From: Candidatus Methylomirabilota bacterium
GTDB lineage: Bacteria > Methylomirabilota > Methylomirabilia > Methylomirabilales > Methylomirabilaceae
DNA length: 26,859 bases
Direction of reading: 5' to 3'
Assembly (NCBI GenBank): GCA_028869615.1
Contig: JAGWRQ010000003.1
Location: 1 to 26,859, forward strand
Positions 14,106-20,131 of the stretch are shown here, in pieces. The notes under the pieces are model-generated. The model searched no databases, was not told where the DNA came from, and saw nothing but the letters and a program-made list of their open reading frames with translations. A program made the position numbers and the translations under genes. Every line of letters begins with the position of its first letter. The first letter of the stretch is position 1.

Positions 14106-14974
14106 ACGCCTTGGCCCTCCACCTTCCCATCCCCCGCACTGTGTTCATTCCAGAGGATCTCGCGGCCGTCGAAGATCGGCCCATCCTTGCAGACAAGGCG
14201 GTAGGTCCGCTCTTGTTCGTCCCCCCTGATCGGCACAACGCAGCCCATACAGGCCCCGAACCCACAGGCCATGTTTGCCTCCAGGGAGGCCTGGTATGGC
14301 AGGCCGTATTTCACAGCAATCGGCGCAATGGCTGCCAGCATGGGGTGTGGGCCGCAGGCATAAAGAGCAGTGCGAGGTGCGAGGTGTGAGGTCCCCAGGA
14401 AGTCCTCAAGCAGTTCCGTAACCAGTCCGTTATGACCGATACTGCCGTCTTCGGTGGCCACGTGGACCGTGGCGCCGGCTCGCCGAAGGTCGGAGACGCA
14501 CAGCAGGTCAGCCCTGGATCGTCCGCCGAGCAGGACCGTCACTGCGATCCGACGGGTAGCCGCTCGATCGGCGAGGGTATCGACAAGAGCGGCAATCGGT
14601 GGTACGCCGACTCCGCCGGCAACCAGAACGACGCCCGTTGCTTTTCGGGGAATCTCAAAGCCATTTCCAAGCGGACCGACTACTCGGAGCGACCCTCCCG
14701 GGCGCATTGCCGCCAGAAGTGCCGTACCTCGGCCACATACCTTGTAGAGGATCTCGACCTCGCACCTCCCGCCTCGCACCTCCCGCCTCGCACCCCTGAT
14801 ACTCATGGCTCGAGGCAGCAGCGGATCGAGTCCGTCGGTCCATCCGAGCATGAGAAACTGTCCAGGACGGAAACGAGCCATGCGCGCCGGGCCGGCCAGA
14901 CGCATCGAAAAGTACTCCGGCGCGATCTGCCGATTGGACACCACCTCGACGACAGTTTCAGATGTCGCCGCCAT
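14102..14974 (-). CDS. pyrK: Dihydroorotate dehydrogenase electron-transfer subunit
   Basis: FAD/2Fe-2S subunit that carries electrons from PyrD to NAD+. The 290 residues comprise an FAD-binding barrel (FRPGQFLML near 35, RAMSIR near 55), a nucleotide-binding domain ([14 protein letters not shown] near 118, YACGPHPML near 205), and a C-terminal cluster motif CGFGACMGC with a fourth Cys in [11 protein letters not shown] 14974 with GAGG about 7 nt upstream is preferred over GTG 14983. It overlaps the carB 3' end by 17 bp. Two heptanucleotide arrays lie inside the gene, encoding about residues 60-71 ([12 protein letters not shown]) and 195-203 (TSHLAPRTA). It is about 30 residues longer than the usual ~255-265. 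Confidence 0.94.
14365..14392 (+). repeat. Heptanucleotide array inside pyrK (distal)
   Basis: Three units GCGAGGT, GCGAGGT, GTGAGGT at 14372-14392, preceded by a weaker GAGCAGT. The G-rich strand is the plus strand, opposite to the proximal pyrK array. It encodes about residues 195-203 of PyrK, just before the YACGPHPM motif, without breaking the frame. Confidence 0.7.
14761..14795 (-). repeat. Heptanucleotide array inside pyrK (proximal)
   Basis: Five heptamers at exact 7-nt steps, alternating CGCACCT and CCCGCCT and ending in CGCACCC. The G-rich strand is the coding (minus) strand. It encodes about residues 60-71 of PyrK, an Arg/Gly-rich stretch between two strands of the FAD-binding barrel. 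Confidence 0.8.
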
Positions 14975-17900
14975 CCCCCGCACCTCGGACGTCGTGATAC
15001 TCCTGCAGCGCCTTAACCCTCAACTTCCCGTGCCGCATCGCCTGGATCGCTTCGATCGCCGCGCGCGCCGCAGCCATCGTGGTAAAGTAGGGAATGCCCA
15101 TCGTGACTGCAGTCCGCCGGATGGAGTAGGAGTCGAGACGCGCGTGGTGACCCTCCGGGGTATTAATGACCATGCCGATCTCTCTATTCTTCATCTTATC
15201 TACGATATGCGGGCGTACGCCGTCGATGACTTTGGCCACTGCCTCCACAGTTACGCCTCCGTCTTTTAGCACGGCCGCAGTCCCGGCCGTCGCCACGAGC
15301 TGAAAGCCCAGCTCCGCGAGCCGTCGCGCCAGGGGCACGATATGCGGCTTGTCATTGTCCCGCACGCTCAGGAAGACCGTTCCATCCAGGGGGAGGGCGC
15401 CACTCGCCCCAACCTGCGACTTGGCGAAAGCCAGTCCGAATTCGCGGTCGATCCCCATCACCTCGCCGGTCGATTTCATTTCCGGCCCCAACACGGCATC
15501 AACCCCGGGGAACTTCACGAAAGGCAGGACCGCCTCCTTGACCGCCACATGGCGAAGCCCAGGCTCCTCGGTAACGTCCAGCTCCCTGAGGCTCATCCCA
15601 GCCATGATCTTGGCCGCCAGCTTGGCCAAAGGGACGCCGATCGCCTTGCTGACGAAGGGGACGGTCCGCGAGGCGCGAGGATTGACCTCCAGGACGTAGA
15701 CCACATGGTCTTTGATCGCGAACTGGATGTTGATCAGGCCAAGCACCCCAAGCTCCAACGCCATGGCCCTCGTCTGGACCCGGATCTGATCGAGCAACGG
15801 CTGTGGCACCGACCGGGGTGGTAGTGAACAGGCCGAGTCGCCGGAGTGGACCCCAGCCGCCTCGATATGCTCCATGATCCCGCCGATCACGACCTCCCGG
15901 CCGTCGCACAGGGCATCCACATCCATCTCGATGGCGTCCTCCAGGAACTTATCAACCAGCACGGGATGTTCCAACGAGGCTTGTACTGCCCTGGTCATGT
16001 ACTCCTGGAGACTCGATTCGTTATAGACAATCTCCATCGCACGGCCACCGAGAACGTACGACGGTCGCACCAGGATCGGATAGCCGATCTGCCGAGCGAT
16101 CCGAAGCGCCTCGCTCACCGAGACGGCGGTCCCGTTCGGCGGCTGATTCAGGCCAAGATGCTGCAGCATCTGCTTGAACCGCTCCCGATCCTCGGCCCGG
16201 TCGATAGCGTCGGGCGGGGTTCCCAGGATTTTTACGCCCGCTCGTTCGAGCGGGATGGCCAGTTTCAGCGGGGTCTGCCCACCGAACTGGACGATCACTC
16301 CGTCCGGCCGCTCCCGCTCCGCGATGTTCAGGACATCCTCCAGACAGAGCGGCTCGAAGTACAGGCGATCGGATGTGTCGTAATCCGTCGAGACCGTTTC
16401 GGGATTACAGTTGACCATGATCGTCTCGCAGCCGATCTCCTTCAGGGCCAAGGCCGCGTGAACGCAACAATAGTCGAACTCGATCCCCTGGCCGATCCGA
16501 TTCGGGCCGGAACCCAGGATCATAATCTTTTTGCGATTGGTTGGGTTGGCCTCGCACTCCTGCTCGTACGTCGAGTACAGGTACGGCGTGTGGGCCGCGA
16601 ACTCGGCGCCGCAGGTATCCACCATCTTAAAGGTGGCCTCGATCCCCATCCGCTTCCTGGCATCCCGGACGGTGAATTCCTGAGAGCCGACAAGCTCGGC
16701 CAGTCGGCGATCAGAAAAACCTAGGGCTTTGGCCTCCCGCATGAGAGGGGCCGTCAAAAGGCGAAGCAACGTCGAGCCGCCCCGACGCCCACTCAGGCCG
16801 GTCAATCGGTCCTCAAAGGCTACGATCTCCTTGATGTTTTCGAGGAACCAGGGATCAATGGCCGTGAGCCTATGGATCTCCTGTATAGTCATCCCCAGTC
16901 GGAGCGCATCGGCAAGGTAAAAGACCCGCTCCCAATTCGCAATGCGGAGGCGGTCGCGAACCCGCATCAGGTCTGCTTCACTGGCTTTGGAACTGCGCAC
17001 CCCGCACCCCGCACCCCGCACTTCCAGGTCCCTGAAGATCCGACTCTCCAGTCCATGAGCGTCGATCTCGAGGGAGCGGATCACCTTCTGCAGAGCCTCC
17101 TTAAAGGTCCTGCCGATCGCCATCGCCTCTCCGACTGATTTCATCTGCGTCGTCAGGGTCTCGTCGGCGCCGGCAAACTTCTCAAACGAGAACCGCGGAA
17201 ACTTGACAACGCAGTAATCGATGGTCGGCTCGAAGCAGGCGGTTGTCTCTTTCGTGATATCGTTACTGATCTCGTCCAGCGTATAGCCCACCGCCAGCTT
17301 GGCGGCGATCTTTGCGATTGGGAACCCGGTGGCCTTGCTGGCCAATGCCGAGGATCGAGAGACCCTCGGATTCATCTCAATCGCCAACATCCGCCCGTTC
17401 TCGGGGTTGACGGCGAACTGGATGTTGCTCCCGCCGGTCTCGACGCCGATCTCGCGGATGATGGCGATGGCGGCATCCCGCATGAGTTGGTATTCTTTAT
17501 CGGACAGGGTCTGAGCCGGAGCCACCGTGATCGAGTCGCCGGTGTGGACCCCCATCGGATCGAAATTCTCGATGGAACAGATGATCACTACGTTATCCTT
17601 CAGGTCGCGCATCACCTCCAGCTCGAACTCCTTCCAACCGATTACGGAAGCTTCCACCAGGATCTGGTGGACCGGGCTCACGTTGAGACCCCACTGGACC
17701 TGCTCGTCGAATTCTTCCCGGTTGTAGGCGACGCTGCCGCCGGTGCCGCCGAGCGTAAATGAAGGACGGATAATGGCCGGGTAGCCAATCCGCTCGACAA
17801 TGGTACGAGCCTGCTCGAAGGAGTCGGCATGGCCGCTCTCAGGCACCTCGACCCCGATCTTCTGCATCGCCTGCTTGAAGAGGTCGCGGTCTTCGGCCTT

Positions 17901-18272: not shown

Positions 18273-18932
18273 CTACTTCACCTTCGCGCCGTAGGCGAGG
18301 CCATCGCCTACTGGGAGGATCTGAGCGAGAAGCTGAGGATGGTGGACGAAGTAGTCGTTAAAGCCGCGCAGCGCCTCTGTTGAGCGGCGGTACTGCTCGG
18401 CGTGTAACCGACCGCTCGCGACCTGCCCTCTCCAGAGAACGTTGTCGCACACGACAACCCCGCCAATCCGCATCAGCGGTAAGGCCAGATCCAGATAGTC
18501 CCGGTACTCTTCCTTCACCGCATCAAGATAGACGAGGTCGAACGGCCCCTCGATTGTCGGGATAACTGTCAGGGCCGGATCATTGTGGAATTCGACCCGC
18601 TCTTCCAGGCCTGCCCGTTTCACATACGCTTTCGCCTTCTCGATCATCTCGGCGCTGATGTCGATGGTCACAACTTTACCTTGAGGCGTCATGGCCCGCG
18701 CCATGAAGATGTCGGCGTACCCGATGGCAGTTCCGACCTCCAGGACCCGCTTTGCCCGGATCGCCCGAACCGTGATCTCCAGAAACGTCGCAACCTCCGG
18801 ATCAGTGATAGGAATGCCATGCTCATCTGCAAAGCGTTCCATCTCCCGTAACAGCAGGTCTCTTTCAGGAAGCAGTCGCTCCAGGTAGTCCTCTTGTTCC
18901 TGATGAATGATCAGCCCAACCTGCGCCTTCAT
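18273..18932 (-). CDS. SAM-dependent O-methyltransferase, TrmR/COMT-like
   Basis: A 219-residue class I methyltransferase of the cation-dependent COMT family. SAM motif I is [10 protein letters not shown] at about 63-72. [15 protein letters not shown] and VCDNVLWRG supply the metal-binding Asp and Asp-Asn pair, and the C-terminus [13 protein letters not shown] closely follows the tRNA 5-hydroxyuridine methyltransferase TrmR (YrrM) pattern. The length also fits. If it is TrmR, it would methylate U34 of some tRNAs; other small acceptors cannot be excluded. It is wedged between carA (4-bp ATGA overlap) and carB (directly abutting). It is therefore translated with the two carbamoyl-phosphate synthase subunits, which are normally adjacent. 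Confidence 0.87.
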
Positions 18933-20131
18933 CGGCTTGCGCCCGCTATTGCCATCAACTCTACGAAGCGCTGAAAGAGGTAGCCGGCATCATGGGGACC
19001 AGGGGAGGCTTCCGGGTGGTATTGTACCGAGAAGATCGGCAGGCGGCGATGGCGCATCCCCTCAACGGTGTGGTCGTTGAGGTTCACGTGAGTCAGCTCG
19101 ATCTCCGAGTCCGGGATCGAGGCGATGTCTACGGCAAAACCATGGTTCTGGGTGGTGATCTCTACCTTGCCGGTCGTCAGATCCTTGACCGGCTGGTTGC
19201 CGCCGTGATGACCGAACTTCAGTTTGTAGGTTCGTCCCCCGAACGCGAGACCCAGAATCTGATGGCCCAGACAGATGCCGAAGATCGGCGTTTTGCCGAT
19301 CAGCTTCTGAACGTTGTCGATCAGATACGGCACGCCCTCCGGGTCACCGGGACCATTGCTCAGGAAGACCCCATCCGGGGTCAGACCCAGGACCGTGGAC
19401 GCCGGGGTGTCCGGCGGGACCACTGTCACGTCGCACCCTGCCTCTATCAGCTTTCGCAGAATATTGTGCTTGATCCCGCAATCGTAGGCCACCACGCGGT
19501 AGGGTGTAGGGGATAGGGTAGAGGGTTGAGTGAAGAGAGGCAGTTGGAGCTTCTGCTGTTCACCCTGACCCCTGGCCCCTAACCCCTGCTCTATGTGGCC
19601 TTTGCTTAATTGCCACGGCCCCTCGTGCCAGGTGTAGGGCGAGGTACAGGCGACTTCCTTCACCAAGTCACGCCCGATCAGGCCAGGCGAGGCTTTCGCT
19701 TTGGTAATCAGACTGTCGGGATGGAGATCTTTGCTGGAGATTACCCCCTCCATGGCTCCATGGTCTCGGAGATGCCTGGTCAAGGCGCGGGTATCGATCC
19801 CCTGAATTCCCACGATATCCCGCTCTTTGAGGTAGCTGTCCAGGGTCTGAGCGCTGCGCCAGTTGCTTGGGTAGGGACTTGCCTCCTTCACAATAAACCC
19901 TTCTACTGCCAGGGTGCTCGACTCGACATCTTCAGGATTGATCCCGTAGTTGCCGATCAGTGGATAGGTCATGACGACCATCTGGCCCTTATAGGAGGGG
20001 TCGGTCAGGACCTCCTGGTAGCCGGTCATGCTGGTATTGAAGACCACCTCGCCAACGGCCTCCCCCTCTGAGCCAAAGGAGCGCCCCTCGAAAAGTGTGC
20101 CGTCAGCCAGCGCCAGGAACGCCTTTTTCAC
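18929..20131 (-). CDS. carA: Carbamoyl-phosphate synthase small subunit (glutaminase)
   Basis: Class I glutamine amidotransferase that releases ammonia from glutamine for CarB. It has 400 residues from GTG 20131. The N-terminal domain starts [16 protein letters not shown], with [18 protein letters not shown] and [12 protein letters not shown]. The GATase domain has the nucleophile C287 in FGICLGHQ and the His/Glu pair in [13 protein letters not shown] 20131 matches usual family starts; GTG 20143, four codons upstream, has a better GGGAGG and is a real alternative. Between the domains, residues 182-210 ([18 protein letters not shown] and onward) are extra relative to E. coli CarA and correspond to two heptanucleotide arrays in opposite orientation. 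It begins just after pyrC. Confidence 0.96.
19501..19528 (+). repeat. Heptanucleotide array inside carA (distal), G-rich on plus strand
   Basis: Units AGGGTGT, AGGGGAT, AGGGTAG, AGGGTTG in exact 7-nt register, trailing into degenerate units to about 19549. Four G-runs of at least three separated by 3-4 nt satisfy a G-quadruplex pattern on the non-transcript-like strand. It encodes about residues 202-210 of CarA. Confidence 0.75.
19561..19588 (-). repeat. Heptanucleotide array inside carA (proximal), G-rich on coding strand
   Basis: Units CACCCTG, ACCCCTG, GCCCCTA, ACCCCTG on the plus strand in exact 7-nt register. The coding strand and mRNA carry four G-runs, a G-quadruplex pattern. It is an imperfect inverted copy of the array at 19501-19528 with 32 nt between, so the mRNA could also form a long hairpin. 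It encodes about residues 182-190. Confidence 0.78.

Follow-up and report, generated by a model that had tools for sequence, protein, structure and literature searches.

Heptamer arrays that change around a conserved peptide in the interdomain linker of Methylomirabilota CarA

What are two opposed runs of heptanucleotides doing, in frame, inside the gene for the small subunit of carbamoyl-phosphate synthase, an essential enzyme of pyrimidine synthesis? The window, i.e., the whole stretch of DNA analysed, is 26,859 nucleotides of contig JAGWRQ010000003.1 from a Candidatus Methylomirabilota bacterium. In it carA (Table 1) has as neighbours carB and pyrK, as identified with Pfam, and pyrC, pyrB and pyrR, as judged from their translations. 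The named relatives of its CarA are from the methane-oxidising Methylomirabilota / NC10 (Methylomirabilales), and the nearest of them include Candidatus Methylomirabilis. A sequence-only reading had drawn attention to the arrays, and their placing and strict 7-nt register were confirmed: on the plus strand the units are AGGGTGT-AGGGGAT-AGGGTAG-AGGGTTG at 19501-19528 and CACCCTG-ACCCCTG-GCCCCTA-ACCCCTG at 19561-19588, i.e., units of exactly 7 nt arranged head-to-tail as in heptameric simple sequence repeats. As carA is on the minus strand, the G-rich arm (19561-19588) precedes the C-rich one in the mRNA. That the pair is in frame at the interdomain linker of CarA was borne out; its assignment to residues 182-210 was near the mark, though in the numbering of P0001 the arms are residues 183-192 and 203-212. 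The arms constitute a 26-nt inverted repeat of 73% complementarity with 35 nt between. Each array does, as had been claimed, have the G-quadruplex pattern G3N1-7 x4, with one such motif on the plus strand (19502-19525) and one on the minus strand (19563-19586). A pattern designed with the window sequence already known, in which four GGG heptamers precede four CCC heptamers by no more than 60 nt, has a single match in the window and none in 200 second-order Markov resamples, and the strict pattern CCCCTNNCCCCTNNCCCCT has 3 matches in the 2.06-Mb draft genome, its reversed control 0.

Table 1. Features of the window referred to in the text
Feature	Position	Strand	Remarks
carA, carbamoyl-phosphate synthase small subunit	18929..20131	(-)	probable GTG start at 20131; Pfam PF00988 + PF00117, TIGR01368
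first heptamer arm (5' in mRNA)	19561..19588	(-)	coding strand G-rich; residues 183-192 (P0001 numbering)
QLPLF codons between the arms	19532..19546	(-)	residues 197-201 of P0001; motif conserved in relatives
second heptamer arm (3' in mRNA)	19501..19528	(-)	coding strand C-rich; residues 203-212 (P0001 numbering)
carB heptamer array near residue 422	16996..17021	(-)	GTGCGGG on coding strand; arrays at this address in some relatives
pyrK 14-nt double-heptamer array	14758..14794	(-)	address near residues 70-85; arrays there in some relatives
pyrK heptamer array, CTCGCAC type	14370..14392	(-)	address near residues 200-219

The answer thought probable, if without great assurance, is that the two arms are a tolerated and replaceable heptamer cassette in a disordered linker, flanking a selected docking motif whose best-matching known partner is the sliding clamp. 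On this proposal the heptamers would be tolerated simple-sequence DNA that is homogenised within an array, and array identity would be replaced wholesale between lineages with linker length and frame largely kept. Selection would hold Q[LM]x[LM]F between the arms as a short linear motif, most likely for docking, for which the best match among known partners would be the DNA sliding clamp (beta, DnaN).

Period-7 arrays across genomes

At a score of at least 13, a 400-kb sample of one complete genome of 2.75 Mb (G005) has 22 arrays of period 7 and 181 kb of another (G000) has 5, while each of periods 4-6 and 8-12 gives at most 1 in either. When the score is at least 16 the counts are 14 and 2, against 0 and 0 in order-1 Markov resamples; other periods reaching that score are 14 (2 arrays in G005 and 4 in G000), 20 (1 in G005) and 4 (1 in G000). 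Compared with other periods, period 7 is over-represented in the sampled genomes, and the expectations that such arrays are enriched in the sampled genome and exceed a composition-based control both held. One further sample, of G009 (108 kb), differs from the rest in having 8 period-9 arrays. No period-7 array was found in 131,710 bases of four sister-class genomes, which have three at period 9, nor in 6,000 bases of the order member G027.

Could an active, mobile element made of heptamers and akin to STRRs or REPs have inserted in carA and elsewhere? Heptamers of one genome do resemble each other more than those of different genomes (2.47 versus 2.83 on permutation, 0/500), 39 of 97 arrays are outside crude ORF calls even though those calls cover 92% of bases, and 36 of the 97 have an inverted partner at most 120 nt away, as against 8 and 3 in controls. 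Arrays are therefore enriched between genes, though more than half (58/97) are inside the calls. However, the element would be one with no fixed sequence, the strict pattern being present 3 times in the genome and heptamers varying by locus, and several array addresses recur across the order, so that such an element is quite improbable. The genome dialects of heptamers could reflect mutation bias. (On contig 100 of G006 all seven arrays scoring at least 13 in 120 kb are of one GTGCGNN-like family, which is such a dialect.) The recurring addresses, occupied in several species and often by different heptamers, are carB ~422, the carB/pyrK junction, pyrK ~72/84 and pyrK ~200-219. At a score of at least 10 the loci L169-L171 (G027, G041 and G043) have none at the carB/pyrK addresses, and at carB ~422 none is listed at score 10 for G003, G006, G007, G008 and G009. 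That carB address (16996-17021 in the window) has a similar GTGCGGG-type heptamer in G002, G004, G005 and G013, unlike the carA site.

Cyanobacterial STRRs are heptamer arrays and Rickettsia palindromic elements are in-frame palindromic inserts, both being families with a recognisable common sequence; for the arrays described here no sequence common to all loci was found. Closer counterparts are the heptameric simple sequence repeats, e.g., GGGAATC in Xanthomonas and GGGGA(C/T)T in Nostoc, a kind of repeat that is over-represented in bacteria and whose functional role is described as unsettled (PMC4692102). As presented in the part of that report drawn on here, the likeness extends to the period of 7, the preference for four units, the existence of some inverted pairs, the capacity for G-quadruplexes as in the window, and positions that close species mostly share, although the repeats vary extensively among them in length and sequence. 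There, however, each organism has one G-rich type that is under-represented in coding regions, whereas the NC10 genomes have many heptamer types each, 58 of the 97 arrays are in ORF calls, arrays occur in frame in carA, carB and pyrK, and in carA they flank a conserved peptide. The TAACTGA direct repeats of Beggiatoaceae are likewise short heptamer arrays across a genome, but of one heptamer and, according to the portion of the account used, mostly directly upstream of putative start codons (PMC4679880). A search of the literature by title found nothing on heptamer repeats in Methylomirabilis.

A shared address with changing heptamers

CarA was searched for in 60 genomes and matched in 59, and 27 linkers could be parsed. 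Of these, 25 are from the 35 genomes of the order, where carA is cut in G010, in two pieces in G033 and without a full match in eight; the 25 class genomes gave two parsed linkers only (L029 and L030). In the order every one of the 25 parsed linkers is extended, at 111-189 nt on the boundaries chosen. Of these, 23 have 7 as their best-scoring period, the weakest being L005 (score 7), and the two of family f4 (L027 and L028) are without period 7. The sister-class linkers are 63 nt (L029) and 204 nt (L030, which has neither motif nor heptamers). The empty site that a mobile element would leave was not seen among the 25 parsed linkers of the order, the one short linker, of 63 nt, being the class-level L029. 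The heptamers themselves differ: AGCGTCG/CCTCCAC in G004, AGTGTCG/CCCTCCA in G005, GTTCAAG/CCGAAAC in G013, CGACGAC/GGTCAAC in G023, AGAGCCG in two genomes of f5 and AGGGGNN/ACCCTNN types in the window.

Nor is the address peculiar to this phylum. Among 80 cross-phylum loci, 74 had a parsed linker (six did not), and in 15 of the 74 period 7 is best with a score of at least 9, another period reaching that score in L083. Four of the 15 are NC10 and 11 are other records, labelled Nitrospirae, Nitrospiraceae, Thermodesulfovibrionia, Deltaproteobacteria, WOR-1, Desantisbacteria and Margulisiibacteriota. With arrays at this linker in other phyla also, the CarA interdomain linker is a recurrent home of heptamer arrays. 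The suggestion that the arrays are a lineage-specific insertion found no support, and a recent insertion into carA is rejected, as the extended linker is order-wide (25/25 parsed members) and other phyla have arrays at the same site. The same linker in distant CarA homologues, the outcome that the sequence-only reading had itself named as damaging, was not seen among 55 other-phylum and NC10 linkers. Two Nitrospirae carA linkers, L074 and L075, have longer in-frame repeats, of the GTGGASPDGAPSRQM type, at the same CarA site.

How fast, and by what means, do the heptamers change? Copies within an arm differ on average at 1.56 of 7 positions, against 4.28 in shuffled arms, and 84% of 50 arms fall below the first percentile of that control. 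Orthologous arms differ at 3.04 and 3.00 of 7, and random heptamers at 3.66. Such likeness within an arm and unlikeness between orthologues may be taken as a sign of concerted evolution. Between L017 and L018 divergence is 7% at 4-fold sites and 2.4% in residues, and yet both arms differ at 3/7 positions: the alignment has a different cassette between near-identical flanks, with the same QLDLF in other codons. In a 20-kb piece of the same two genomes there are eight aligned stretches, 84-98% identical (92-95% for the longer ones), and on inspection some arrays at other addresses are alike and others changed. In P0034 and P0066 the domains are 98.6% identical and the linker types are different.

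Might neutral slippage and point mutation explain all of this turnover, with no recombinational replacement? In the part of the report cited here, slippage is conjectured to underlie the abundance of heptamers (PMC4692102), and some pairs are just one homogenised base apart, as in L007/L009 (AGCGTCG/AGTGTCG). Against it, 6 of 14 heptamer positions differ between L017 and L018 at 7% 4-fold divergence, with motif codons differing too, and between L006 and L008 the first arm is kept but the second is different, in register and of the same length. Slippage as the whole explanation is therefore unlikely. Wholesale replacement, by conversion or short-tract recombination, would account for these comparisons better than changes in copy number, though cassette differences among metagenome bins could be assembly chimeras. 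Linker lengths within the genus (n=13) are 132 nt in 9, 135 in 3 and 111 in 1, the step from 132 to 111 being three heptamers. A DNA search of the 35 order genomes for a donor of the G026 cassette found the full cassette in G026 alone, the 6 other matches covering 23-28 nt (G015, G016, G023 and G026). Inspection of G023 and G026 revealed a similar heptamer retained at some addresses, so replacement is not universal.

An instructive parallel is the P6b stem-loop of the Nostoc trnL intron, which is built of heptanucleotide repeats and where, as that source relates in the part drawn on, motif classes have swapped repeatedly at one address in a manner not precisely matching phylogeny (PMC4476775). 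It differs in being a non-coding intron with two classes, and recombination was not detected there; the CarA linker is coding, with many classes and, apparently, a selected peptide in the loop. There is good support for the view that the arms, as a variant of a known repeat type, are heptamer DNA that is tolerated and quickly replaced.

The peptide between the arms

What has been kept while the heptamers changed? In all 25 order linkers the DNA between the arms encodes Q[LM]x[LM]F, QLPLF in the window. A set of 121 CarA proteins was assembled from the query and the best 120 homologues listed, of which 119 were parsed and two were not, and the motif or a near variant is present in 119/119: QLDLF in 45, QLNLF in 25, QLSLF in 17, QLKLF in 13, QLPLF in 9, QMDLF in 5, QLDIF in 2, and QLALF, QLDMF and QLTLF in 1 each. 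QLNLF is also carried by the linker L038. In that set Q and F are 100% conserved and the two leucines 96-97%, while the top residue averages 43% in the surrounding linker (177-194 and 206-212) and 88% in residues 1-160. The codons vary synonymously, with CAA/CAG for Q, six leucine codons as well as ATG at position 2, and TTC/TTT for F. By all appearances the conserved unit is this peptide, which the sequence-only reading had overlooked, and comparison of the homologues gives good support to its being selected. The predicted structure of CarA has confident domains, with pLDDT < 50 at linker residues 178-203 and 205-207, so the segment around the motif is predicted to be disordered.

A second search, seeded with the Planctomycetota CarA L059, added 84 proteins, of which 80 were parsed and four were not. 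The motif is present in 13 of the 80, i.e., 12 that are NC10-like by their linker and P0122, L059's own protein; the NC10-like P0164 has QLDRF. L059 has QLDIF and its four nearest listed relatives have no motif, so the string can arise alone. Across the sets examined the motif in CarA was seen in the order and in L059 only.

If the peptide is what is conserved, what of the nucleic acid structures, i.e., a G-quadruplex or hairpin that would pause transcription or translation between the CarA domains? The window has a G-quadruplex motif on both strands, a template-side motif is present in 10/27 linkers, and arms complement their own partner better than a permuted one (37.0 against a permuted mean of 30.3, 0/20,000, n=25; p=0.0076 for the genus alone, n=13). 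However, the coding strand has the motif in 3/27 linkers and both strands in 2/27, so the pattern is not kept at the site in relatives. By mononucleotide shuffles, RNA folding has z < -2 in 8/25 order linkers, in six of 25 (L006, L008, L010, L018, L027 and L028) the pairing of an arm with its own partner falls below its average with foreign arms, and the f4 linkers devoid of heptamers (L027 and L028) retain the peptide motif. Better pairing on average with six exceptions points to some pairing having been kept but not to a strict hairpin. As a conserved feature the quadruplex or pausing structure that had been proposed is rejected, and pausing as the explanation of the locus is very improbable.

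A candidate partner, and PurF

To what might a disordered QLxLF dock? The consensus for binding the bacterial clamp is QL(S/D)LF, with highest affinity for QLxLF, and such motifs are in tails, loops and disordered segments (PMC11139829, in the part relied on). The CarA motif fits the beta-clamp definition Q-aliphatic-x-[L/M]-[F/L] and sits where pLDDT is < 50, a likeness both of residue pattern and of setting that PurF shares, though neither enzyme is named as a clamp binder in that part of the paper and the motif here is a candidate one. The C-terminus of PurF has the strict motif in 111 of its best 120 homologues, a loose form in 7 and none in 2. From 30 loci, 29 PurFs were parsed (25 of the order, 4 of the class); the motif ends in F in 28, with QLRLL in G021. 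QLRLF, QLPLF, QLSLF and similar tails are found in Methylomirabilota (L123:376-1800 of G005; P0206-P0325), and the motif reaches the sister class (4/4 parsed); it is absent from four PurFs of Alphaproteobacteria and Fusobacteriota. For PurF the predicted structure is of low confidence (mean pLDDT 70), and the tail, residues 443-472, is < 50. The entry enzymes of both nucleotide pathways thus share the motif in this lineage.

Is the string simply common? A strict-motif scan of 1,433 ORF calls (444,613 aa) from 19 sampled genomes gave 21 matches, of which 15 are CarA, from stretches included on purpose, one is PurF and five are others: RtcA, a proton-antiporter subunit, PhoH, thymidylate kinase and an MFS transporter. 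To judge by their positions, those five seem to fall within conserved domains or membrane segments. For G005 alone the scan matched the motif 5 times and its reverse once. Genome-wide, the reversed control outnumbered matches to the codon pattern for Q[LF]x[LF]F in each of the six genomes searched, so there is no general enrichment of the motif. On inspection DnaN of G005 has the pocket segments TDGHRL, FPNY and VIMPMRL, and that of G000 has TDGHRL and VIMPMRL; Pol III alpha of G005 has QGSLL near residue 924, not QLxLF. The dnaN of G000 (L261) has its own double heptamer, AGCTGTC-AGCTAAC twice after TDGHRLAM, which specifies ELSANSCQLTA, part of a loop; the repeat does not reach the array threshold, and its counterpart in G005 is degenerate.

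CarA functions as a complex with CarB. A contact with CarB or another nucleotide-synthesis enzyme, i.e., a metabolon rather than the clamp, is accordingly a serious contender for what QLxLF serves, if one to which less than even weight is given. The complex is established knowledge, and the same motif in the tail of PurF, another gateway amidotransferase, would allow a shared partner other than the clamp. On the other side, the motif fits the clamp consensus position by position, as set out in the part of the source cited (PMC11139829), and the class-level CarA L029 has neither the motif nor the whole segment, so assembly of CarA with CarB presumably needs no motif there.

Clamp binding by the CarA motif is put forward tentatively, as possible but on balance doubtful. 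The same reserve attaches to its wider form, in which CarA with its linker QLxLF and PurF with its C-terminal QLxLF would both be replication-clamp clients in Methylomirabilota, the heptamer arms being an evolvable spacer that presents the motif. A sliding clamp as docking site for metabolic enzymes has a precedent in the proposal that PCNA is a scaffold for human ENO1 and 6PGD, though, as the part of that work drawn on has it, with a eukaryotic clamp, other motifs and other enzymes (PMC9937922). A literature search, mostly without subscription journals, listed no publication linking CarA, pyrimidine synthesis or PurF to the sliding clamp.

Orthologous arrays at a fixed address in a widespread gene, set against 4-fold sites, are a natural experiment, and in at least one pair turnover has outrun silent drift. 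The presence of QLxLF in both CarA and PurF leads to a testable claim, that nucleotide synthesis in this lineage has a common docking partner, which may be the sliding clamp; if CarA and PurF were clamp clients, the synthesis of carbamoyl phosphate and of purines would be tethered to replication.
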